57,925 bases of DNA, taken from the IMG/VR virus record IMGVR_UViG_3300009160_000051, positions 1 to 57,925 of that record; one strand, written 5' to 3'. This DNA comes from a virus. The translations under genes and the position numbers were made by a program. Below the pieces are notes generated by a model that saw only the letters and a program-made list of their open reading frames with translations, did not search any database and was not told the origin of the DNA. Every line of letters begins with the position of its first letter. The first letter of the stretch is position 1. This document shows, piece by piece, positions 2,354 to 32,874 of this stretch.

Positions 2354-3692
2354 TAAAAGCTATTGAACCACTTGCATTATTGGTTTGATACATACCACAT
2401 TGACCAGCAGTAGCAGATGTATCTCCTGAGTTATACATAACTGCTATTTTTGTTGTAGTTCCGCTATCAAGCGTAAAACTATTAAATGTATGAGCAGTTC
2501 CAGCTTGATAAAAAACATAATATCCTGACCCTGTAGTTGCTACTAATGTTGGTACAGTTCTCATTTCGGTTGGGAAAAATGTCATACATTGAATAAATGT
2601 TGATGCATATCTATCACCAACACCAAGTCTTTGCCCTGTACCATTTGCATATCTGATGTAATATCGTTGGCAAAGAAGTGTTTCGGTACCAATGCTTCTG
2701 TAATCGAAAGTCGTTGCCTGTGTGCCTAGCTCAAGCTGAACTCCAGTAATTTGCCATGTGTTTCCATTGGTAGCAAATAGGTTTGTTTGACCGCTGACTG
2801 TGTAGTAATAGTTACCACTTACACCATTCGCTTGCCAAGTATTTGCTGTTAATCCGCTTGCAGAAGCTAAACCAAAATCTAAGTCAATACCACGATCATT
2901 GGTGCTTCCCCAAGTTCCACTTGTTGGACCCACAACAGTTATTGTTTTGTATTCCCAAGTGTTAGCAGTATTAATTGTGTATGAAAAACCAAAAGCATAC
3001 AGATTGTTTCCAGTTTGCATTGCACCACCAAATGTTCCTGTTACGGAACTACGCACCCAAAATGACAAAGTGACAGTTTTTGCGTCAGCAGTACCCCAGC
3101 CAAGGTCTGCCATGTTATAACCTTCAACATACTGACGAACGATGGCAAAATTAGTTCCAAGACTTGTTGCTTGGCTTGTAATTGTTGCTAATAACGAATT
3201 TTTAAAACCTGCGGGAGCGACAGATGATTGTTGGATAGTCATTGCCCCTGAGGTATTTTGGTAAGATGACCAACGATCTAATGTATAGTTATCTGAAATA
3301 GTACCGTTAAACGCTCTTTGATTTATTACCATCGCACCGTTGATAATACGGTTCTTGAAGCTAATACCTAAGTCTTGCTGTACATCAGCATTCAATGTGC
3401 TCCAGCTAACTGTGCCTTGGCTCGGTGTGATTGCCTGAGTCGTGGTGCTTAGATAGCGGACATAGACGTTGCTTGTACCAGCTGACGGGGCAGAGGTGAA
3501 GGTAATAGTCGTGCCACTAATAGTGTAAGCATCATTAGGTACTTGAACTACGTTATTAACTACTGCTTGAATGTCGTTAACGGAAGCTACTGTGCGTGAT
3601 AAGGTAAACGCAGTTGCTGAACCTGTGCCGTTAAAGTAGTCAGTACCTGAAATAAAGTTCTGACTTGTAGGAGTAGAACCGATGTAAGACAT
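2340..3692 (-). CDS. Tail fibre with carbohydrate-binding-type C-terminal region (450 aa)
   Basis: The N-terminal ~100 residues (MSYIGSTPTS, YFNGTGSATAFTLS, VYVRYLS) match the start of the fibre at 274-1266. From about residue 110 it changes to FKNRIINGAMVINQR followed by an all-beta region with YTLDRWSSYQN and LELGTQATTFDYRSI; this jelly-roll-like arrangement is common in phage fibres thought to bind sugars. The join between a shared N-terminus and a different C-terminus points to domain shuffling. Receptor binding is inferred. Confidence 0.8.
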   Translation of the reverse strand: MSYIGSTPTSQNFISGTDYFNGTGSATAFTLSRTVASVNDIQAVVNNVVQVPNDAYTISGTTITFTSAPSAGTSNVYVRYLSTTTQAITPSQGTVSWSTLNADVQQDLGISFKNRIINGAMVINQRAFNGTISDNYTLDRWSSYQNTSGAMTIQQSSVAPAGFKNSLLATITSQATSLGTNFAIVRQYVEGYNMADLGWGTADAKTVTLSFWVRSSVTGTFGGAMQTGNNLYAFGFSYTINTANTWEYKTITVVGPTSGTWGSTNDRGIDLDFGLASASGLTANTWQANGVSGNYYYTVSGQTNLFATNGNTWQITGVQLELGTQATTFDYRSIGTETLLCQRYYIRYANGTGQRLGVGDRYASTFIQCMTFFPTEMRTVPTLVATTGSGYYVFYQAGTAHTFNSFTLDSGTTTKIAVMYNSGDTSATAGQCGMYQTNNASGSIAFSAEL

Positions 3693-4018
3693 TATGCAAT
3701 CTCCAATAGAGAAGCAATAACGTCAGCACTAGATGCAGCAGAAGAAACTACCTTGAGTACATCAGCAGCCTCTAAGCAAAGCTTTTGATCTCCTCCGATA
3801 GGTACTAAAGAACCACCGACAGGTACTGTTGCACCCTTAACCAAGTAGTAATCTACAGCAGAAGAAGTAACATACACATCACAAGTAATAGGTGATGTTG
3901 TAGTGTTACCAATCGACATGCCGATGACAGTAGTTTGTGTTGACGAAGGGCAAGTATAAATCGTAGCAGCAGATGTGCCGACAGACTTGCTGAAGTAATT
4001 TTTAAAAGTATTAGCCAT
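3692..4018 (-). CDS. Small beta-rich virion protein (108 aa)
   Basis: Starts MANTFKNYFSKSVGTSAATIYTCP and continues as alternating short strands with Ser/Thr/Val-rich turns, ending VIASLLEIA. Its layout is like the 110-residue protein at 19419-19751 (small proteins with an IYT(C/V)P strand early and an Ile/Leu-rich end), so the two may be related small tail or head decoration proteins. It sits between two fibre genes. No enzymatic motif is seen. Confidence 0.7.
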   Translation of the reverse strand: MANTFKNYFSKSVGTSAATIYTCPSSTQTTVIGMSIGNTTTSPITCDVYVTSSAVDYYLVKGATVPVGGSLVPIGGDQKLCLEAADVLKVVSSAASSADVIASLLEIA

Positions 4019-19756: not shown

Positions 19757-20533
19757 TTACGCAGCAGTATTACTAATTAAAACACCTTGCAAAATTAAAC
19801 CCACAGAATGTGTTCCACTAGCGGTAGAAAATTGCCATTGGATATCTGTCTTTTGCGTGTAAGGGAATGGATTATTGCGTATTACTTGATATTTTGAATC
19901 CCATGCTGTTTGCAATACAGTAAGGGTTACAGGGTTGGTTTGGGCATTATTTGTGCTTTTTACTTGATAATTGATTGCATTACCAGCCGCAGCGTCACCA
20001 TTAAAAGCATTGATTGACCCAAGATACATTGTGTACCCATTTGGTACAGAGTACACAGCGGCTTGTGACCTTCCTACACCTGCTGAAATTTGAGAATAAG
20101 TAATACCACCATTTTTTGCCGTGATCGAACCTACGTTAGTAGTTTGACCTGTACCTGTGCTAGTCAGAATCATGCTATTAATACGTAGAAACTGGTTTGT
20201 TGTAGTTACATTCGATGTTCCATTTAGAGTTACCGTTTCAGATAGCAGATTCCAACTGGAGTCTAGCCCATTAATTAGAACAGTAGCTCTTGTATTATCA
20301 GAAGCAGACGTACTGGCAAGAGTCATAGTTACTGCAGATGCAGGAAAAGCGAATTGTGTAGTTCCTGTTAATTCCCACAGTGTGTAAAATGTAGTTTTAA
20401 CATTATCTGAAAAGGCAAAAATATTAACCTGACTAACATCGGCTACTTTACCACGAGCAACCTGCATCTCCCAAGGGGCTGCAAGGGAAGATCCAGTATT
20501 ACTAGCTAATGGTGGATAGGATGTAATACTCAC
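19757..20533 (-). CDS. Beta-rich structural protein (258 aa)
   Basis: N-terminus has APWEMQVARGKVADVSQVN, a start I associate with virion structural proteins of marine podoviruses. The rest is a regular series of Thr/Ser-rich strands (VTMTLASTSASDNTRATVLI, GNAINYQVKSTNN, HSVGLILQGVLI). No enzyme motif. A head-fibre or decoration role is inferred. Confidence 0.7.
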   Translation of the reverse strand: MSITSYPPLASNTGSSLAAPWEMQVARGKVADVSQVNIFAFSDNVKTTFYTLWELTGTTQFAFPASAVTMTLASTSASDNTRATVLINGLDSSWNLLSETVTLNGTSNVTTTNQFLRINSMILTSTGTGQTTNVGSITAKNGGITYSQISAGVGRSQAAVYSVPNGYTMYLGSINAFNGDAAAGNAINYQVKSTNNAQTNPVTLTVLQTAWDSKYQVIRNNPFPYTQKTDIQWQFSTASGTHSVGLILQGVLISNTAA

Positions 20534-20977
20534 TTACTTCTTCTTCACTTTGCGTGCTTCAGATAAAGCAATGGCAATAGCCTGCTTTGGATTCTTAACT
20601 ACAGGACCACCCTTACCAGAGTGTAATGACTTGTCTTTGAACTCGCCCATAACTTTACCGACCTTAGCAGTTTGCTTTTTAGTCAAACCCTTGCTCGCTG
20701 TCGCTACGCCACCATCAGCCATCTTCTTAGTTTTTACTGGGGAGAATTTAGTAACACCTGCCTTAGCAGCTTTAGAACCAGATTTTTTAATCACAGAACC
20801 ACCTTTACGCATTCCGGGAGTTGATAGAGTAGCAGACTTCTTTTGTTGTATCGCATTTTGTAAATCTTGAATCTGCTTATTTAACCTAGAGTCAGGAACA
20901 GATCTACCCGCTGCAGCTTTCTTAGCAGCAATTAATTCCTGAGTTAAAGAGTTAATTTCTAAATCATCTTGAGTCAT
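20534..20977 (-). CDS. Basic protein with DUF6496-type C-terminus and GG motifs (147 aa)
   Basis: An N-terminal coiled coil (LNKQIQDLQNAIQQKK) precedes MRKGGSVIKK and KKMADGGVA, two copies of the GG motif of this phage. The C-terminus (KVMGEFKDKSLHSGKGG, then KQAIAIALSEARK) matches the small DUF6496 family. Very lysine-rich, so DNA or RNA contact is likely. Which protein the GG motif contacts is unknown. Confidence 0.75.
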   Translation of the reverse strand: MTQDDLEINSLTQELIAAKKAAAGRSVPDSRLNKQIQDLQNAIQQKKSATLSTPGMRKGGSVIKKSGSKAAKAGVTKFSPVKTKKMADGGVATASKGLTKKQTAKVGKVMGEFKDKSLHSGKGGPVVKNPKQAIAIALSEARKVKKK

Positions 20978-20980
20978 GAC

Positions 20981-21265
20981 TTAGCACTTCTTCTTGCTCA
21001 TACCACCTTTGTTCATCTTTGGCTTACCTACGGCAATCATCACTGCCAGTGTAGGTTTCTTAGAAGCTGTTTTCTTAGCTGGTGCTTTCTTAGCTACTGC
21101 ACCACCTTTAGCCATTTTAGTCTTCTTAGCTTCTTCAGCAGCCTTCTCTTTAGCCTTAGATTCTTTGTACTTAGCGATATCTTTCTCTGCTTGGGCATTC
21201 TCTTCTTTAGTACCCATTACATTCTCTTTAATACGGGTAAAGAAGTTATCTGATTTAGATGGCAT
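20981..21265 (-). CDS. Lysine/alanine-rich protein with GG motifs (94 aa)
   Basis: Begins MPSKSDNFFTRIKENVMG, continues as a charged helix (AEKDIAKYKESKAKEKAAEE), then KMAKGGAVAKKAPAKK and a C-terminal KPKMNKGGMSKKKC. The Lys/Ala/Pro repeats are like the tails of histone H1-type proteins. Probably packaged or DNA-condensing; unproven. Confidence 0.75.
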   Translation of the reverse strand: MPSKSDNFFTRIKENVMGTKEENAQAEKDIAKYKESKAKEKAAEEAKKTKMAKGGAVAKKAPAKKTASKKPTLAVMIAVGKPKMNKGGMSKKKC

Positions 21266-21266
21266 G

Positions 21267-21446
21267 TTATTTTCCTAATGTCTTTAATGTCTTAGCTAGT
21301 CGAGCACGTTGCCCCATCTTACCGGGTGCTTTAGCTGCCTTGTCTAGTTTTTTAGCAGGGATAGTTTCACCCTCTTTTACTTTTAAGGACTTACGCAAAG
21401 CACCGGGTTTCTTGATAGCTTCTTGAATCCAGTTCTTAGTAGCCAT
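21267..21446 (-). CDS. Small conserved basic protein (59 aa)
   Basis: Read directly from the sequence: starts MATKNWIQEAIKKPGALRKS, with KVKEGETIPAKKLDKAA and GKMGQRARLAKTLK. This KKPGALR ... KLxxAAK ... RARLA(K/Q)TL pattern is common in small phage proteins. It fills the gap between two lysine-rich genes. Function unknown. Confidence 0.8.
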   Translation of the reverse strand: MATKNWIQEAIKKPGALRKSLKVKEGETIPAKKLDKAAKAPGKMGQRARLAKTLKTLGK

Positions 21447-21450
21447 AGTA

Positions 21451-21876
21451 TTACTTCTTCTTCATAGCCATGCCACCACAAGCCATAGCAGGTTTAACAG
21501 AAGCACCACAGTTAGCATAGCCACCTTTGTTCATCTTAACTACAGAACCACCCTTAGCCATAGCTACTTTCTTTTTAGACACATAGCCACCACTCTTGTA
21601 ATCCAAAGATTGCTGTAGGTCTTTCTTTTCTTTCTCAGTCAAAGCACCCTTCTTAGCTGCAGGCTTATCTTTGCCCATAGCAGAAGCATAGGCTTCTTTA
21701 TCTGCAGCAGCTTCTTCTTTCTTAGTTAACTTCTTAGAAGCTTCTGCTTTCTTTTCTTTAGCAAATTCTTTCTGAGCCATTGCTGTCTCTTCATCATAGC
21801 CGGGGCTACCTGTGAATTTCTTAGCTGCCTTGTCCATTGCTTCTAATTGCTTAGTTAAAAATTTAGCGAGTGCCAT
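21451..21876 (-). CDS. Lysine-rich protein with several GG motifs (141 aa)
   Basis: A charged helical N-terminal two thirds (TAMAQKEFAKEKKAEASKK, then TEKEKKDLQQSL) is followed by a dense set of motifs: KSGGYV, AMAKGGSV, KMNKGGYA and AMACGGMA, ending in MKKK. It carries the most motif copies of any protein in the window and two cysteines near the end. Function unknown. Confidence 0.75.
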   Translation of the reverse strand: MALAKFLTKQLEAMDKAAKKFTGSPGYDEETAMAQKEFAKEKKAEASKKLTKKEEAAADKEAYASAMGKDKPAAKKGALTEKEKKDLQQSLDYKSGGYVSKKKVAMAKGGSVVKMNKGGYANCGASVKPAMACGGMAMKKK

Positions 21877-21900
21877 TGCTGTGTTTCCTTTAGTTAAAAA

Positions 21901-22239
21901 TTACTTACCGTAAAACTTGTTGAGGGGATGACTACGTGATTTTGTTACCATACCACCGCTATTAAAGTCTTCTCTAAGATCTTTGTAGTCTGGTGCTTTA
22001 GTTTCAGCTTCGCCTGCTTTTCTTTTTTCTTTATTCTTTTCTCTACGGATCATTTCTTCATCAGCAGCAAGACGGTCATTGATTGACTTAGAAGCTGTAG
22101 AATTTGCTTCTAGCTCAGCTTTAGATTTCTTAGCCATTTCAACTTTCTTTGCAGCTAGCTCTACCTTACCCTGTTCTTCCTTCGGATACTTTTTAGAAAG
22201 CCTACCTACAAACTCCGCTGCTTTTTTTGATACTGGCAT
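21901..22239 (-). CDS. Charged helical late protein (112 aa)
   Basis: Almost entirely Lys/Glu-rich helix (KVELAAKKVEMAKKSKAEL, EEMIRREKNKEKRKAGE) with a C-terminal NSGGMVTKSRSHPLNKF. The GG element is again near the end. Part of the early-late run of small basic proteins; no recognised family. Confidence 0.7.
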   Translation of the reverse strand: MPVSKKAAEFVGRLSKKYPKEEQGKVELAAKKVEMAKKSKAELEANSTASKSINDRLAADEEMIRREKNKEKRKAGEAETKAPDYKDLREDFNSGGMVTKSRSHPLNKFYGK

Positions 22240-22266
22240 GTCCCTACTCCGTAATTAAAATTAAGA

Positions 22267-22536
22267 TTACCACTTAACCTTGTCAGCCCAGTATGCAGCT
22301 GATAGCTTACCCTTTGAAATATTCTTAGCGTGTCTTGCCTTGAATGACTTTTGTCTAGCTTTCTCTGCAGGTGTCGAAGGATTAGATCCAGCACCTGATA
22401 CACCTTGTTGTCCAAATCGGATAAGCTTCTCTGTACTGCCTTCCTTAGCTAGCACAGCATGTGACTTAGTAGGATGTTGGGGAGTTCTCTTCGGTTTATT
22501 ATAACCAGCAAACTCTTCCTTACCTTTTTTAATCAT
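22267..22536 (-). CDS. Conserved basic protein (89 aa)
   Basis: Contains EEFAGYNKPKRTPQHPTKSH, KLIRFGQQGVSGAG and KARHAKNISKGKLSAAYWA, a pattern found in many phages and some bacteria, although its activity is not known to me. The conserved Trp-containing end (AAYWADKVKW) argues for a real folded protein. Overlaps the next gene by four bases. Confidence 0.8.
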   Translation of the reverse strand: MIKKGKEEFAGYNKPKRTPQHPTKSHAVLAKEGSTEKLIRFGQQGVSGAGSNPSTPAEKARQKSFKARHAKNISKGKLSAAYWADKVKW

Positions 22537-22805
22537 ACGAACTTGTATCTCTTAGGTTTAAGAACTCTGGATTCACTCCAGCCTTCGGCTCTCATGGCAG
22601 CTTCGACATCTGCTAGTTTGAATTTCATTTGCTTGTGATGCTCCATAGCTGCCTTCACAAAGAATACATCACTATGGGGTACATGTATAGAGTCTAGTCT
22701 ATTGTTCCTAACTGCAGCATAGAAATCTTCCAATACGAAATCATCACGGAGAAGTGTCTTCTTTTTCTTTCGTTTAAGTACGGATAGGTTTACTTGTTTT
22801 TCCAT
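22533..22805 (-). CDS. First gene of the leftward arm (90 aa)
   Basis: Starts MEKQVNLSVLKRKKKKTLLR and contains FVLEDFYAAVRNN and MKFKLADVEAAMRAEGWSES. Basic N-terminus, mixed helix. It is the first gene after the divergent control region, so it would be the first leftward product made. There is no strong ribosome site (ACAAAAG only). Family not recognised. Confidence 0.7.
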   Translation of the reverse strand: MEKQVNLSVLKRKKKKTLLRDDFVLEDFYAAVRNNRLDSIHVPHSDVFFVKAAMEHHKQMKFKLADVEAAMRAEGWSESRVLKPKRYKFV

Positions 22806-22906
22806 CTTTTGTCAACTGTTATTATTTTTCTGTTGTCTTGCTCTTGCCCTTGCTCGGATACAAGATCCTCGCATTTAGGAAGTACAGATGGTATGTACTT
22901 ATGTGT

Positions 22907-23071
22907 TCACTTTAAGTGAGGCATTTAAATGTCATTCAAAGGTAAATGAATTTTACTTGACAAATGTACATTTAACTGTATACATTTAACTGTTTTTATA
23001 TATCTATGTTATATAGTTATATATGTTTTTATAGTTTAACTATAACACTTTAACTGTATCACTTTAAGTGA
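22907..23071. repeat. Paired palindromes flanking TTTAACTGTA repeats
   Basis: TCACTTTAAGTGA occurs twice, at 22907-22919 and 23059-23071. Between them are TTTAACTGTA at 22971 and 23049 and TTTAACTGTT at 22985, within an AT-rich core. Identical palindromes at both ends of a promoter-bearing core suggest dimer binding sites with looping. Confidence 0.65.
22957..22984 (+). promoter_or_regulatory. Candidate rightward sigma70 promoter
   Basis: TTGACA (22957-22962), 16-base spacer, TATACA (22979-22984). It sits between the two palindromes, so a protein bound there could block it. It points to the early arm, whose first gene is about 1.2 kb away. Confidence 0.5.
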
Positions 23072-23086
23072 CTGTCTGTTAGACGT

Positions 23087-23116
23087 AGTTTAACCGTACT
23101 TTGCTATTCTTGTCAA
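23087..23116 (-). promoter_or_regulatory. Candidate leftward sigma70 promoter
   Basis: Minus-strand TTGACA (23116-23111), 18-base spacer, TAAACT (23092-23087; four of six). It is about 280 bases upstream of the first leftward gene and next to the second palindrome. Confidence 0.45.
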
Positions 23117-23720
23117 GCTTTTTCTGAACTATCTTCTCTATCATAACTAAAGTATCTAAAGACTAAAGTTCTATATACGAATTATAGCATAAGTAAATTA
23201 AACTGTCTAGAACAAGCTGTAAGCTGCTTTGCACAGTAGATAGTAGGTAGCTGTCACCTTCAGTGAGATCACTTGCTATGAGGCTTCCTATGCCCTCACA
23301 GAAGGTGTTACACACAAACCCTAGCATTGTATGTGAGTACATCATGTGATTACAGTTTACGTGAGGTAGGGCATGTGAGACACTGAAAGTGCATAGCATT
23401 GTTAGTGTGTACTAACCTATATAAATACCTGATCTGTGTAAGAAGCCATATACAACTAACGCACCACCCCCGCATGGCGCACGCCCGCCCCCAGATGTGC
23501 AGGTAATGCGATATGTGACACGCATCATGCAACACAGTGCAAATGCTATGCAAGGTGATGCATAAATCTGTATACAGATCAACGACTTACAGATTATATG
23601 CAACTGATAAAGTATCAGTTAGTGGGGTAATAGTGCCTAAAAAATAGGCAGTTTATGACTCTGTGAAACAGATATCCCCTTCGGTGTATGGTCACTTTTA
23701 ACCCAACACTCAAACTGTTA

Positions 23721-23850
23721 TCACCTTTGGTGTTTCACTCATCCTGTTTTTCACCTTTGGTGTTTCACAATCATGTCGATTATTCCGTATTTCATCGACA
23801 TGTTTCACCTTCGGTGTTTTCACTTTAGCTACTTCACCTTTGGTGTTTTA
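23721..23850. repeat. Iteron-like repeats TCACCTTTGGTGTTTCAC
   Basis: Two identical 18-base copies at 23721-23738 and 23751-23768, a variant with TTCGG at 23805-23823 and a shorter one at 23834-23850; a degenerate copy lies near 23676. Spacing is about 30, 54 and 29 bases. Each contains a CACC-TTT/TTC-GGTG hairpin core, so they could act as DNA protein sites or as RNA hairpins. Confidence 0.7.
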
Positions 23851-23868
23851 GTGTCGAATGTTCGGCAC
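23851..23868. promoter_or_regulatory. Operator-like palindrome GTGTCGAATGTTCGGCAC
   Basis: A copy of the TGTCGAATGTTCG palindrome found downstream of two promoters in the early arm. Its arms (GTG.CGAA / TTCG.CAC) differ at one position. No promoter box could be placed at the same spacing upstream. Confidence 0.5.
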
Positions 23869-24058
23869 AAAAATGTCATCCAAAGGCTCACATGGTTTTA
23901 ATAGACAGTCTTCAAGCGAAGCTTGAAAAAATATATTAAATAAAGAAAAGTGAAAACTGGCATGGAACTTTTACTAAAGTAACTTTTTCCCGATCAAAAA
24001 TTCCTCGTCAAACAATACCTTTAGCCTTTAGGCTAATTTAAGGGGAAGCCCCAGAAAT

Positions 24059-24148
24059 AGTTTATCTTATTTACGAGAATATATTTACCCTTTACTGAAA
24101 GTGAAAGGGGATATAAATATATTCTCTTTTAAGTAAATAAGATAAACT
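24059..24148. repeat. 90-bp imperfect hairpin before the first early genes
   Basis: AGTTTATCTTATTTAC (24059-24074) pairs with GTAAATAAGATAAACT (24133-24148), and GAGAATATATTTA (24075-24087) with TAAATATATTCTC (24114-24126), separated by a TTTTAA bulge. The tip has CCCTTT pairing with AAAGGG around a 10-base loop. About 35 base pairs in all. It would form a long RNA stem in the early leader, or a DNA cruciform, just 18 bases before a start codon. Confidence 0.85.
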
Positions 24149-24166
24149 AAATAAGGAAAAACCATC

Positions 24167-24319
24167 ATGGCAAAATCGATTCTCAGCATCAAAACTTCAC
24201 TCGAATCCTTCGGATTTTGGTATACCCTTCAACGATGTGGAGTATCTTTCGATACCCTATGGTTGATCTTTGTTGCTCACCAATCAAATAAATTTGATAG
24301 CAAGAAATACTCGGCTTAA
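24167..24319 (+). CDS. Small early protein (50 aa)
   Basis: Read from the sequence: MAKSILSIKTSLESFGFWYT, then LWLIFVAHQSNKF. Starts with the same MAKSI as the next gene, suggesting a duplicated start region. An AAGGAAAA ribosome site precedes it. The coding sequence contains three short hairpins (24204-24216, 24242-24255, 24283-24298). Partly hydrophobic, but no convincing membrane helix. Family unknown. Confidence 0.55.
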   Translation: MAKSILSIKTSLESFGFWYTLQRCGVSFDTLWLIFVAHQSNKFDSKKYSA

Positions 24320-24371
24320 ACTTTAGTTTACTTACAACTTTACTCACAACTATCCTGAAAGGATAAATATC

Positions 24372-25202
24372 ATGGCAAAATCAATCCGCTCCGCTTTACT
24401 GGCTAACGAAGTTAAGAACTTGGGCATCTTCCAAGCCAAAGGCTTAATCCCTGAAACTCCAGTCGTAGCAAACTGGAAAACAGAGCTTAACGCTCTGAAA
24501 CAAGCCGAGGTGAAAACATCAACTGTTAAAGTTGATAGCAAACTGAAACCTACGAAACAGTCGAAGACTGTACCAACCAAGAAAGCTGAAAAGCCTACCA
24601 AGGCAGAATTAGCGAAAGACTCTAAGAGTCGGCATCAATTCAGCGAGATTATGAATCGACAATTCGGTAGTGAGAAGGGTTATACCCTTGGTCAAGCTAT
24701 TGAACATTCAGCTAGTGTTTACACTAGTATCGTCAAACAAAAGCGTGGTCAGCTTGAAAAGCTGAATGAGATCGGTAAGGTACTGCAAGAGCTTCGCTCT
24801 GTTATCGGCAAATCGGATAAGGAATTCGGTCAAGCAGTTAAGGCAACAGCCTTAAAGAATATGTCTAGACAAGATCGTAGCGATGCTATGTGGTTATCCG
24901 AGAATTGGATTGAGGTGAAGGGCAAAATGAAAGAGTTAGATATTAACTCTTGTTCTGCTAGTTACCTTCGTCAGTTACTTCGTAAAGAAGCGAAATCTGC
25001 TGATAGCAAAGCTACTGTTAGCGAAGCTACTGAGTCAGATTCTGATTCTAGCGAAGCTAGTTCTACTGTCGAACCTTCGACACTACAACTCTCAGGGAAT
25101 GATGCTGAAAGCATTGCTAGTGCCGTTATCCATCTAGCTAAAGCTAAGGGCATTTCACTTGCTGAAATAGCTACGCTAATCCTTGCTGAATCTGCCGAAT
25201 AA
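24372..25202 (+). CDS. Hairpin-rich early gene, unknown protein (276 aa)
   Basis: Lysine-rich N-terminal part (residues 1-85), a helical centre (GQAIEHSASVYTSIVKQKR, KEFGQAVKATALKNMSRQDR, ASYLRQLLRKEAKS) and a Ser/Thr/Glu-rich linker before a C-terminal hydrophobic helix (ESIASAVIHLAKAKGISLAE). The centre resembles plasmid or phage replication and partition helper proteins in flavour only; I do not recognise the family. The coding DNA carries ten perfect hairpins with 6-8 bp stems and 2-5 base loops (for example 24518-24536, 24749-24765, 24838-24855, 24931-24951). Its ribosome site lies in the stem TATCC/GGATA (24351-24365). Confidence 0.75.
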   Translation: MAKSIRSALLANEVKNLGIFQAKGLIPETPVVANWKTELNALKQAEVKTSTVKVDSKLKPTKQSKTVPTKKAEKPTKAELAKDSKSRHQFSEIMNRQFGSEKGYTLGQAIEHSASVYTSIVKQKRGQLEKLNEIGKVLQELRSVIGKSDKEFGQAVKATALKNMSRQDRSDAMWLSENWIEVKGKMKELDINSCSASYLRQLLRKEAKSADSKATVSEATESDSDSSEASSTVEPSTLQLSGNDAESIASAVIHLAKAKGISLAEIATLILAESAE

Positions 25203-25236
25203 CCTTCGGTTAACTGTTGTATGTAGTATCGTCATT

Positions 25237-25255
25237 AGCCCCTAACGGGGCTTTT
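25237..25255 (+). terminator. Rho-independent terminator
   Basis: AGCCCC (25237-25242), loop TAAC, GGGGCT (25247-25252), then TTT. Short but GC-rich stem, 35 bases after the stop of the 276-residue gene. The T-run is short, so termination may be partial. Confidence 0.65.
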
Positions 25256-25301
25256 GGCGTTAGTAGTACCCGTTTTGTGTAATGCAAATGTACTTGCTAT
25301 G

Positions 25302-25383
25302 CCCTGTGCCTTGTGATGTATATGCTGTATGTATGTGTCACGCCATGATGTTATGTATGTGTATGTATGGAACTGGCACAGGG
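25302..25383. repeat. 9-bp inverted repeat in the gap between early genes
   Basis: CCCTGTGCC (25302-25310) pairs with GGCACAGGG (25375-25383), enclosing 64 bases rich in TATGTATG. It lies between the terminator and the next small gene, in a 209-base gap that holds no gene I can support. Confidence 0.6.
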
Positions 25384-25411
25384 TTCATGGCACTTAATTC
25401 GGAGATTATTT

Positions 25412-25534
25412 ATGCCAACTTATCAAGATTATGTAGCTTATGCTAAAGCCAAAGGCTTTATTCCTTTCACAGAAAAAACTTTCAATGCTTTTATTAAAGC
25501 GAAGATAAACCCCATCACTTCAACCTCACTTTAA
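25412..25534 (+). CDS. Small early protein (40 aa)
   Basis: MPTYQDYVAYAKAKGFIPF followed by KTFNAFIKAKINP. The ribosome site TTCGGAG lies seven bases before the start. Two hairpins lie inside it: TAAAGCC/GGCTTTA (25444-25460) and GCTTT/AAAGC (25487-25500). Its stop overlaps the TTAATCGGAGATTAA element of the next gene. Unknown function. Confidence 0.6.
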   Translation: MPTYQDYVAYAKAKGFIPFTEKTFNAFIKAKINPITSTSL

Positions 25535-25545
25535 TCGGAGATTAA
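25531..25545 (+). promoter_or_regulatory. Hairpin ribosome-binding element TTAATCGGAGATTAA
   Basis: Perfect 6-bp inverted repeat (TTAATC / GATTAA) with the ribosome site GGAG at its loop, two bases before the start at 25548. The same element precedes the genes at 25735 and 26838. Confidence 0.7.
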
Positions 25546-25547
25546 CC

Positions 25548-25721
25548 ATGACACATGTATTCGTAGTCACCTCGCATGTAGAGGTCGAGAAAAACAATTG
25601 GAGTAGCGAAATAGTCGGAGCTTTCACCCTACGGAAGGATGCGGAAGCACTTGCTAAAGCACTGGGCGAACAAGCCGAGTCCAATGAAACCATTGAGCTT
25701 CAAGAAGTTGCCCTTAACTAA
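25548..25721 (+). CDS. Small early protein (57 aa)
   Basis: MTHVFVVTSHVEVEKNNWSS, then AFTLRKDAEALAKALGEQAE. A strand-strand-helix plan, typical of many small phage accessory proteins that describe a single ββα unit. Contains short hairpins (ACCTC/GAGGT 25569-25585; CAATG/CATTG 25682-25695). No known function. Confidence 0.7.
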   Translation: MTHVFVVTSHVEVEKNNWSSEIVGAFTLRKDAEALAKALGEQAESNETIELQEVALN

Positions 25722-25732
25722 TCGGAGATTAA
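25718..25732 (+). promoter_or_regulatory. Hairpin ribosome-binding element CTAATCGGAGATTAA
   Basis: Second copy of the element, with a 5-bp perfect stem (TAATC / GATTA) and GGAG in the centre, two bases before the start at 25735. It overlaps the stop of the preceding gene. Confidence 0.7.
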
Positions 25733-25734
25733 CT

Positions 25735-25968
25735 ATGTTAAATGAAATTGAAATAGCAGATCTCAGCGTAGCTGATAAATCACATGGCAGTCTATGGGAC
25801 AGGGGTAGTGCTGATAGCTACTATGGTAGACCTCGTGATCCCCATTACTATCCACAGGGTACATACAATGGGGATCGTGTCACAGACCTTACCCCAGAGC
25901 AAGTAAGAGTGTACCTCGCAGGGTATGCATGGAATCAGAAGCATGGGGACAAGAAATCTTGGTACTAG
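25735..25968 (+). CDS. Small conserved accessory protein (77 aa)
   Basis: Contains WDRGSADSYYGRPRDPHYYP and VTDLTPEQVRVYLAGYAWN, a pattern shared by small proteins of plasmids and phages. I chose the ATG at 25735 because of the ribosome element just before it; an upstream ATG in frame would overlap the previous gene. The sequence holds a 10-bp inverted repeat (GATCCCCATT/AATGGGGATC, 25837-25876) and its stop codon sits in TAGTAC/GTACTA (25966-25980). Confidence 0.75.
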   Translation: MLNEIEIADLSVADKSHGSLWDRGSADSYYGRPRDPHYYPQGTYNGDRVTDLTPEQVRVYLAGYAWNQKHGDKKSWY

Positions 25969-25981
25969 TACATAGTACTAA

Positions 25982-26058
25982 GGGAAAGTCCCTATTTACA
26001 AGCCAATCCCTATGCCTTGATACTGGAAATGTTTTATAGCGGTACTGTCGAATGTTCG
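25982..26058 (+). promoter_or_regulatory. Promoter/operator module, copy 1
   Basis: GGGAAAGTCCC hairpin (25982-25992), -35 TTTACA (25995-26000), 18-base spacer, -10 GATACT (26019-26024), 22 bases, then the palindrome GTCGAATGTTCG (26047-26058). A second copy with the same spacings lies at 29100-29180. It would drive the gene at 26081 and those after it. Confidence 0.65.
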
Positions 26059-26080
26059 TCACTAACTAAACGGAGTTTAT

Positions 26081-26800
26081 ATGTCATCACAAATCACCCT
26101 GTTATCCACAGTAGCTAACGCTAAGATCGAGAAAACGAATGCCGTTGTCGGTGGCAATCATCTGTATGCAGAAATGTCCCTGATGCCTAACAACACAATC
26201 TGTGCAGGTAGTAAGGCTGCACAGTGTATGACCCCATGCCTGAAGAATGCAGGTCGTGGTGTCTTCTCGAATGTTCAATTGTCCCGTCAAAGGAAGACTG
26301 ATTTTTGGATGTCCAATCCTACTGAATTCAAAGCACAATTAGTGACTGAATTAGAAGCCCTTGTAAAGAAGGCTAGCAAACAGGGTAAAACGGCTCGTGT
26401 AAGGCTTAATTGCTTCTCGGATATATCTTGGGAGCTTCAAGTTTGCAATCGTAATGGCAAGCCATTTAAGGGCATTCCACAGGCTTTCCCTGAAATCGAG
26501 TTCTACGATTACACCAAGCATGCATCACGATTAGGTAAGACACCTGAGAATTACTCACTCACATTCTCATACTCTGGTGTAGATACCTACAAGAATCAGG
26601 TCAAATTGGCACAGACTTCTAGTGCAAATATGGCAGTAGTTTTCCATGGTAAGGAATTGCCAGTCACTTTCATGTCCCGAAGGGTAATTGATGGTGACTT
26701 GCATGATGCTCGTATCGATGACCCGAAGGGTGTGATTGTGGGTCTTCGTGCTAAAGGACCTGCTCGTAAGGATGTATCAGGTTTTGTAGTGAGGGTATAA
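26081..26800 (+). CDS. GP88-like cysteine-motif protein (239 aa)
   Basis: Residues ~38-62 hold NTICAGSKAAQCMTPCLKNAGRG, followed by a VQLSRQRKTDFWMSNP helix, VRLNCFSDISWEL and FPEIEFYDYTKHASRLG. This order (three cysteines, AGRG, then a nucleic-acid or sugar-type FYDYTK strand) resembles the phage GP88-like family, whose activity is not known to me. It follows promoter module 1 with a CGGAG ribosome site. A TTATCCACA DnaA-type box lies inside it at 26102-26110, possibly by chance. Confidence 0.7.
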   Translation: MSSQITLLSTVANAKIEKTNAVVGGNHLYAEMSLMPNNTICAGSKAAQCMTPCLKNAGRGVFSNVQLSRQRKTDFWMSNPTEFKAQLVTELEALVKKASKQGKTARVRLNCFSDISWELQVCNRNGKPFKGIPQAFPEIEFYDYTKHASRLGKTPENYSLTFSYSGVDTYKNQVKLAQTSSANMAVVFHGKELPVTFMSRRVIDGDLHDARIDDPKGVIVGLRAKGPARKDVSGFVVRV

Positions 26801-26821: not shown

Positions 26822-26836
26822 TTAATCGGAGATTAA
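26822..26836 (+). promoter_or_regulatory. Hairpin ribosome-binding element TTAATCGGAGATTAA
   Basis: Exact copy of the element at 25531-25545, one base before the ATG of the next gene. Confidence 0.7.
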
Positions 26837-28727: not shown

Positions 28728-29093
28728 ATGAAAGTATATGTATACCGCAACTTACACAAGGACTGTTGGTCAATCAAGGCACTCGAAGGTAACAACAAGG
28801 GCAAGGTCGTATACCATGCACAGACTGTGACCCTATCGAACTGCACATTCAAGGTGTCCAAGGCAGGCAGAGAGCGTGTGCTGCGGGACAAGCGTAAGAA
28901 TGTACATGCAGGTGTAGCAGGTGAACTAATCAGGGTCAACATTCCCCTTAGCTACATGCCACAGATGACTGCAGTTACCTACAATCCATACAAGTATGAA
29001 TCATTTGTCCGTAAGTACAACGACTTCATGCCAGTACACAATGCTAGTTGGGTATACATGGCAGATGACAAAAGTGTAGGGGCTATCCTGTAA
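28728..29093 (+). CDS. Accessory protein (121 aa)
   Basis: Begins with strands MKVYVYRNLHKDCWSIKALE and KVVYHAQTVTLSNC, then KAGRERVLRDKRKNVHAGV, a basic middle. The N-terminal KxxVYRNLHKxxxSI form recurs in many phage accessory proteins. Ribosome site AGGAGG. Last gene before promoter module 2. Confidence 0.7.
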   Translation: MKVYVYRNLHKDCWSIKALEGNNKGKVVYHAQTVTLSNCTFKVSKAGRERVLRDKRKNVHAGVAGELIRVNIPLSYMPQMTAVTYNPYKYESFVRKYNDFMPVHNASWVYMADDKSVGAIL

Positions 29094-31998: not shown

Positions 31999-32874
31999 AT
32001 GTTAATCAAATCAGCAAACGGCATTCCATCTTTACCTGAGTTCTTGGATTTCAATCCAGTGCGTGAGCAACAAACTCGCAATGGTATTGCAGTACCTAAC
32101 AAGTTTTGGACAATCAACCCACTCACTGACACAGTCATCGGAGATGGTAAGTCTGTGCATAACCCAAAGAACTTCCGTGTTGTATGGGATAACATGCGTG
32201 AAGGCTTAGCGATTGCTAAGTTAGACACAAGCAATGTGGATGTAGAGTTCAATGCCATGAACAATGGTGCTGCATTCTCAGCCAAGATTATTCTCAAGCA
32301 ATACAACTTCGAGAAGAAGTTAGGTGAGCCTGCAAAGATGGTGATGCATGTTCGTGACTCACATGACCAGTCAGTCAAGATGCAGATCAGTGCAATGATC
32401 TATCGCTTAGCTTGCTTGAATGGAATGATTGCTCCTCGTGAGAAGGTAGGTATCTCACAGAAGCACACTACATTCTATGACCCAGAGGTGATCGGTAAGG
32501 TAGCATCACAGTTCCCTGAGCGATTAGAGCGTGATGCAGAGGTGATGTATCAGATGCAAGGCATCAAAGTTAATCGTGACTTTGCATTGGACTTCTTCCG
32601 TAGGAATGTAGCTACCTACATGACCAAGACAGGTCAGAAGGTAAACAACAAATGGCTTGAGCGTATCATCGGTATCTACGATAGCTACGACACAATGCGT
32701 GGTACTGCATACCAAGTGTACAACACACTGACACACATCAGTACTCACGTTGAAGCACAGCGTGATGGTACCGAGGTGGAGCGTAAGCGTATCCGTATTG
32801 AACAGGACATCGAGTCTGTCATTCAGGGTGCTGAATTCCAGCAGTTGATTACCCCTGAGTTAGAGTACGCTTAA
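31999..32874 (+). CDS. DUF932-like phage protein (291 aa)
   Basis: The middle reads MVMHVRDSHDQSVKMQIS, then YRLACLNGMI, the signature of DUF932-type proteins of phages and plasmids (function poorly known). N-terminal LPEFLDFNPVREQQTRNGI and a helical C-terminal third are also typical. Clear AAGGAAAT ribosome site; a terminator follows directly. Codon use looks like strongly expressed genes (few rare codons), fitting an abundant early protein. Confidence 0.7.
   Translation: MLIKSANGIPSLPEFLDFNPVREQQTRNGIAVPNKFWTINPLTDTVIGDGKSVHNPKNFRVVWDNMREGLAIAKLDTSNVDVEFNAMNNGAAFSAKIILKQYNFEKKLGEPAKMVMHVRDSHDQSVKMQISAMIYRLACLNGMIAPREKVGISQKHTTFYDPEVIGKVASQFPERLERDAEVMYQMQGIKVNRDFALDFFRRNVATYMTKTGQKVNNKWLERIIGIYDSYDTMRGTAYQVYNTLTHISTHVEAQRDGTEVERKRIRIEQDIESVIQGAEFQQLITPELEYA

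Follow-up and report, generated by a model that had tools for sequence, protein, structure and literature searches.

A position-locked island of short perfect hairpins at the early-operon junction of an HMO-2011-like phage, possibly folding as DNA

The stretch analysed here, referred to throughout as the window, is a 57.9 kb virus contig (IMG/VR record IMGVR_UViG_3300009160_000051) whose terminase, portal, DNA polymerase and ribonucleotide reductase match those of the Puniceispirillum phage HMO-2011 and the Roseobacter phages CRP-1 and CRP-345. By these related proteins, we classify the phage as HMO-2011-like, a type reported to dominate in the ocean and to be widespread there (PMC9038755). 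Leftward genes, including terminase and portal, extend up to ~22.8 kb, and the rightward early and replication genes run from 24.2 to 47 kb. At the divergent junction, where the rightward early operon begins, we found a zone crowded with short perfect hairpins, which is the subject of this work. A DNA-level search with this region against phage records returned 0 matches. The zone and its genes are as follows.

23000..26080 (core 23400-25300), no strand: hairpin-dense zone, delimited by shuffle tests and density profiles
24167..24319, plus strand: open reading frame (ORF) of 50 amino acids (aa) inside the zone, retained only in the relatives L004/L103
24372..25202, plus strand: p276, a 276-aa orphan gene of an all-helical family, with 17 hairpins of stem at least 5 bp
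25412..25534, plus strand: 40-aa ORF within the zone
25548..25721, plus strand: 57-aa ORF within the zone
25735..25968, plus strand: 77-aa ORF within the zone
26081..26800, plus strand: GP88 gene (PF17338), used as an internal control

A hairpin was defined as a perfect stem of at least 5, 6 or 7 bp, as stated, with a loop of 2-6 nt, and counts were compared with dinucleotide shuffles (n = 300) for the zone and with synonymous-codon shuffles for genes. In the interval 23566-26050, which a first-pass annotation of this DNA had described as packed with perfect hairpins, we counted 45 with stems of at least 5 bp against 12.5 ± 3.7 in dinucleotide-shuffled sequence, 23 against 3.2 ± 1.8 with at least 6 bp, and 11 against 0.86 with at least 7 bp; at each threshold, 0 of the 300 shuffles was as high. 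The p276 gene alone carries its 17 hairpins against 4.3 in synonymous-codon shuffles, and seven of its relatives carry 13-20 against 3.2-5.6. The two kinds of shuffle rule out chance and base composition as the source, so the dense hairpins are real. The excess survived shuffling and the relatives retained hairpins despite base changes, which is the outcome by which the first-pass annotation had proposed to judge its own claim.

The limits first given for the zone were only partly right, as enrichment begins further left (~23.0 kb) and is weaker past 25.3 kb. The left neighbour (20500-23000) is at chance level, with 12 hairpins against 11.7 (stem at least 5 bp), and in the 2.5 kb to the right of the zone the shuffle test gave a far weaker excess. 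The GP88 gene, 1.7 kb downstream of the p276 start, has 3 hairpins against 2.8 in synonymous shuffles. The proposed recurrence of hairpins every 40-60 bases holds as a density (one per 55 nt, stem at least 5 bp) but not as a spacing, since no periodicity was found (coefficient of variation 0.64 against 0.68 for random placement). A cluster of intrinsic terminators was also considered and rejected, GC-rich stems followed by a T run numbering 3 against 1.9 expected. Elsewhere in the window, a DUF932 gene at 31999-32874 shows a mild excess (14 hairpins against 4.8 in synonymous shuffles).

The same junction carries 29 hairpins per 2.5 kb in HMO-2011 (4.0 elsewhere), 29 in CRP-1 (4.5 elsewhere) and 21 in CRP-345 (4.6 elsewhere). 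Hairpin profiles revealed no island in CRP-2, CRP-207, CRP-235, CRP-3, HTVC033P or MW202701, of which CRP-207, HTVC033P and MW202701 were profiled mostly, though not entirely, in one piece. Genome-wide, hairpins relative to shuffles stood at 0.71-0.75 in the island-free CRP-2, CRP-207 and MW202701, against 1.76-1.86 in island-bearing phages. Among the p276-relative contigs with data, 45 of 47 carry three or more hairpins within the initial 500 nt of the gene (~0.6 expected), L111 and L141 being the exceptions. A hairpin peak as in the window recurs in seven close contigs, which were retrieved by way of the downstream GP88 gene. Averaged over 21 non-redundant loci, the density rises from ~1 kb upstream, peaks in the p276 gene at ~20 times the left-hand background and decays over ~4 kb rightward. 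The island is therefore widespread, not universal.

Several further contigs bear on this distribution. L049, a distant GC-rich (61%) contig, carries very strong hairpins (up to 11 bp) at 2884-3800, upstream of early genes including GP88 and homologues of gp82 of mycobacteriophage L5, and given this contig the phenomenon may extend beyond HMO-2011-type phages. In L025, a phage contig that is AT-rich and encodes a GP88 homologue, a hairpin cluster at 884-1640 covers a minus-strand 93-aa ORF (start MANSK). An apparent zone in CRP-9, a phage without a p276 homologue, was set aside because its hairpins are an AT-rich GTTTAA-NN-TTAAAC set. Some contigs start (L105) or end (L109, L116, L127, L142-L144) inside the p276 gene, and the hairpins may be the cause of these assembly breaks.

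Nearly every p276-bearing contig has the island, and we initially favoured the p276 gene, or its protein, as the source. However, L179, L184 and L187, HMO-type contigs collected through their terminase, have the island without p276, and p276 was rejected as the cause. In these three contigs the GP88 gene follows shortly after the junction and has 20-21 hairpins (5.2-5.7 when codon-shuffled), whereas the counts in most of the other GP88 genes tested stay at or close to chance, as in the window, with those of HMO-2011 and L057 slightly raised. Because GP88 is hairpin-rich near the junction and close to chance elsewhere, the hairpin burden is set by position, independent of gene content. A gene of the L5 gp82 family (PF25735) was likewise rejected as a correlated factor: 920 phage records contain its homologue (window 28728-29093), as do the complete island phages, and it is absent from CRP-2, CRP-3, CRP-9 and CRP-235, but the gp82-bearing Goose, phiNIT1 and phiT1 lack a comparable island.

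The same contigs bear on the idea that the hairpins serve as an array of binding sites for a structure-specific protein, perhaps p276 itself, which lies within the density peak in contigs found through it and has a confidently modelled helical core (pLDDT 88). We consider this very unlikely, since the island persists without p276 in L179, L184 and L187, stem and loop sequences vary freely, and the spacing is irregular. In sequence and structure look-ups p276 matched no family or fold, including any DNA-binding fold, and its modelled core resembled no solved structure.

We then examined which kind of pairing is enriched; these G·U and rate tests are simple pair counts on related sequences rather than tree-based estimates. 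Perfect stems of 6 bp with a 3-nt loop number 166 against 13.4 expected, whereas the same stems with one G·T pair number 25 against 23.5 and those with one A·C pair 41 against 22.5. Among singly broken stems, 24 have G·T and 38 have A·C, so G·T is not preferred. Two-base loops are also enriched (139 against 15.1 expected), and to our knowledge RNA cannot close such loops. The main loop classes are G..A triloops (117 against 4.7 expected), A..A and T..C, and the enriched loops are closed by C-G or T-A pairs. The recurrence of GAA and TTC loops reported at first was borne out, with GGA, AAA and TAC loops strongly enriched as well. Where PMC6479982 cites Yoshizawa 1997, GNA triloops are given as unusually stable in DNA, and their importance as DNA, also raised at first, agrees with the enrichment of GNA and two-base loops and the lack of G·T tolerance. 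Taken together, a G·T tolerance no higher than chance, the excess of two-base loops and the predominance of GNA triloops suggest that the hairpins are DNA folds rather than ordinary RNA structure, a conclusion we infer from the sequences.

These counts weigh on the possibility that the hairpins act in early messenger RNA (mRNA), where they might shield it from host RNases, block R-loops or Rho loading, or tune translation. Such a function would fit the fall in hairpin density along the rightward operon over ~4 kb, the sense bias of the loops and a median RNA folding energy of -3.8 kcal/mol, which is sufficient for folding. It would also fit the Shine-Dalgarno GGA placed in triloops ahead of 33 start codons: 33 of the 38 GGA-loop hairpins lie within 19 nt upstream of ATG or GTG, with the Shine-Dalgarno core shown in the triloop and the stem variable (TTAATC-GGA-GATTAA, TAAAC-GGA-GTTTA and others). 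Nevertheless, stems containing G·U do not exceed chance, against a 12-fold enrichment of perfect stems, evolution shows no G·U preference, the selected two-base loops are of the kind noted above as impossible in RNA, the loops show no excess of RNA tetraloops, and an Rfam search at gathering thresholds matched no described RNA family. We therefore regard a primary role in mRNA as unlikely, and the lack of G·U pairs makes the early suggestion of message protected by structure less convincing. Control of translation by structure, another early suggestion, applies to the GGA subset and not to the remainder; we read the ribosome-binding sites as accommodated by a general hairpin constraint rather than as what explains the island as a whole.

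The loops also differ by strand, with GAA exceeding TTC by 57:12 between positions -250 and +750 relative to the gene start, a coding-strand bias which suggests either that the coding strand is the strand that matters or that the bias derives from codons. Both this bias and the strong asymmetry of the island, with almost no hairpins leftward, argue against a torsional buffer in which minihairpins take up negative supercoils between the diverging early and late units. Such a buffer would suit the position at the divergent junction, and hairpins of phage N4 extrude at sub-physiological superhelical density (PMC4496689), but we hold it to be highly improbable.

In codon alignments, whole stems are swapped at one aligned site (GACTC-TAA-GAGTC, GATAC-GAA-GTATC and TCATC-GAA-GATGA), and the exchange of CTAGC-GAA-GCTAG for CTACC-GAA-GGTAG changes Ser-Ser-Glu-Ala to Ser-Thr-Glu-Gly. 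The stems thus covary, at times at the cost of amino-acid changes. Of the pairs with both sides changed, 64.6% are Watson-Crick, against 16-29% in slid-register controls. On MAFFT alignments, which underlie all stem-rate comparisons, stem divergence is 0.58 times that at the remaining sites of the zone (0.57 for the leader, which is non-coding, and 0.70 for p276), and the stem-to-flank rate across leader, p276 and small genes is 0.57-0.70; chance hairpins in leftward genes of the same contigs, taken as control, gave 0.99. Hairpins were retained in 57% of comparisons in the zone against 21% in the control, and double changes were Watson-Crick in 68% against 35%. The slower evolution of stems than of their flanks indicates selection rather than mutation alone, and the hairpins are under selection.

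A mainly mutational origin would have template switching between the arms perfect short quasi-palindromes in single-stranded or highly transcribed DNA, copying changes from arm to arm. Perfect stems are known to arise and persist through this process (PMC8794818), and RNA-DNA hybrids promote template-switch mutations in highly transcribed DNA (PMC3820800); the pattern it predicts, namely perfect pairing only, short loops and concerted double changes, is the one observed. By our reasoning, however, arm copying alone should not slow the stems as measured above, and loop inversions, a footprint of the process, account for only 2 of 86 distinct loop changes. As the main source of the island, we judge template switching improbable.

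The individual hairpins and elements to which we refer are the following.

23722-23732, 23752-23762, 23806-23816, 23835-23845, no strand: four leader minihairpins CACC-TTT/TTC-GGTG, paired ~30 bp apart
23911..23927, plus strand: TTCAAGC-GAA-GCTTGAA; relatives have TTCAAGC-AAA-GCTTGAA or TTAGATC-TAC-GATCTAA instead
24058..24149, no strand: long quasi-palindrome of 92 nt with GAA apex, found by self-match, in the leader of the 50-aa ORF
24283-24298: ATCAAAT-AA-ATTTGAT, within the 50-aa ORF
24557..24571, plus strand: ACAGTC-GAA-GACTGT, in p276
24712..24727, plus strand: CTAGTGT-TT-ACACTAG, replaced by CCAGTGTTTACACTGG in L010
24931..24951, plus strand: AAGAGTTA-GATAT-TAACTCTT, invariant across L004-L009
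25067..25082, plus strand: TGTCGAA-CC-TTCGACA
25531..25545, plus strand: ribosome-binding-site hairpin TTAATC-GGA-GATTAA, preceding the ORF at 25548
25719-25731, 26067-26079, 26822-26836: further ribosome-binding-site hairpins of the same design

The hairpin at 23911-23927 is the example first given for a place near 23930. The CACC-TTY-GGTG minihairpins, iteron-like in look (window 23722-23845), occur in 2-6 copies at the same place in the relatives L101-L110 and L113; they are confined to the leader in the window clade and in L113, and other island phages are without them. The arms of the 92-nt quasi-palindrome covary at one pair (GAG/CTC, GTG/CAC, GGG/CCC) in L101-L107, and the element is missing in L110.

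Tentatively, we favour a position-locked island of DNA minihairpins, most likely folding in DNA, that would open or mark the early junction. Selection retains perfect Watson-Crick self-pairing in any sequence, whether coding or non-coding, with which the rightward early operon begins, in the form of 5-8 bp stems with loops of 2-5 nt, preferably GNA triloops closed by C-G or T-A. The hairpins may extrude as DNA, in an N4-like manner, once the incoming genome is negatively supercoiled, or the coding strand may form them once early transcription or a replication bubble has displaced it; either event at an early promoter or origin junction is our best reading. They would thereby keep the junction open or marked for starting early transcription, replication or both, although this opening or initiation function is speculative. 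A replication role, one of the first proposals, would fit the sequence data, while a packaging role found no support.

Several points weigh against this reading. That the hairpins form as DNA in the cell is something we infer only; the sense-strand loop bias would fit RNA as well; the leftward side of the junction has few hairpins, so a symmetric origin is not indicated; and the island-free CRP-2, CRP-207, CRP-235, CRP-3 and HTVC033P must start replication and transcription otherwise.

The comparative paper on HMO-2011-type phages (PMC9038755) contains no mention of hairpins, stem-loops or inverted repeats, literature searches turned up no account of the island, and it appears to be undescribed. 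It could possibly, with somewhat less assurance than the reading above, represent a cis-acting phage element of a new class: an island of 2-5 kb in the early operon, with dense coding-strand DNA minihairpins selected regardless of gene and acting single-stranded or extruded to start early transcription or replication. Should the whole operon start be held to a DNA fold, DNA shape would partly dictate protein evolution there, and the start of infection in HMO-2011-type phages would involve an undescribed structural signal. The cultured HMO-2011, CRP-1 and CRP-345 allow direct testing, with the island-free CRP-2 and CRP-207 as natural controls.

Among known systems, the promoters of the N4 virion RNA polymerase share with the island short perfect stems, small loops, a phage early region and freely varying paired bases. 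In N4, host gyrase drives extrusion of small promoter hairpins in vivo, and non-conserved stem bases may vary provided that pairing is kept (PMC4496689). N4, however, has only three such early promoters, whereas dozens of hairpins occur here, mostly inside ORFs; those of N4-type promoters lie just upstream of transcription starts. Those large window proteins that were compared with Pfam and PHROGs gave no RNA polymerase match. As no N4-type polymerase was found among them and most hairpins lie inside genes, we did not file the island as N4-type. The GNA-loop DNA minihairpins of the d(GCGAAGC) type resemble the most enriched class here, GAA, GGA and GTA triloops closed by C-G, but what is known of them concerns their stability and their use in aptamers, not a selected array of kilobase length. 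The coding palindromes of Nematomorpha mitochondria are likewise perfect inverted repeats in functional genes, with protein and structure both kept, but reach 284 bp, whereas the stems here are 5-8 bp, at one operon start and in any gene (PMC6649704). Template-switch (quasi-palindrome) mutation shares the perfect stems and concerted arm changes, but here the stems evolve more slowly than their flanks, which points to selection.

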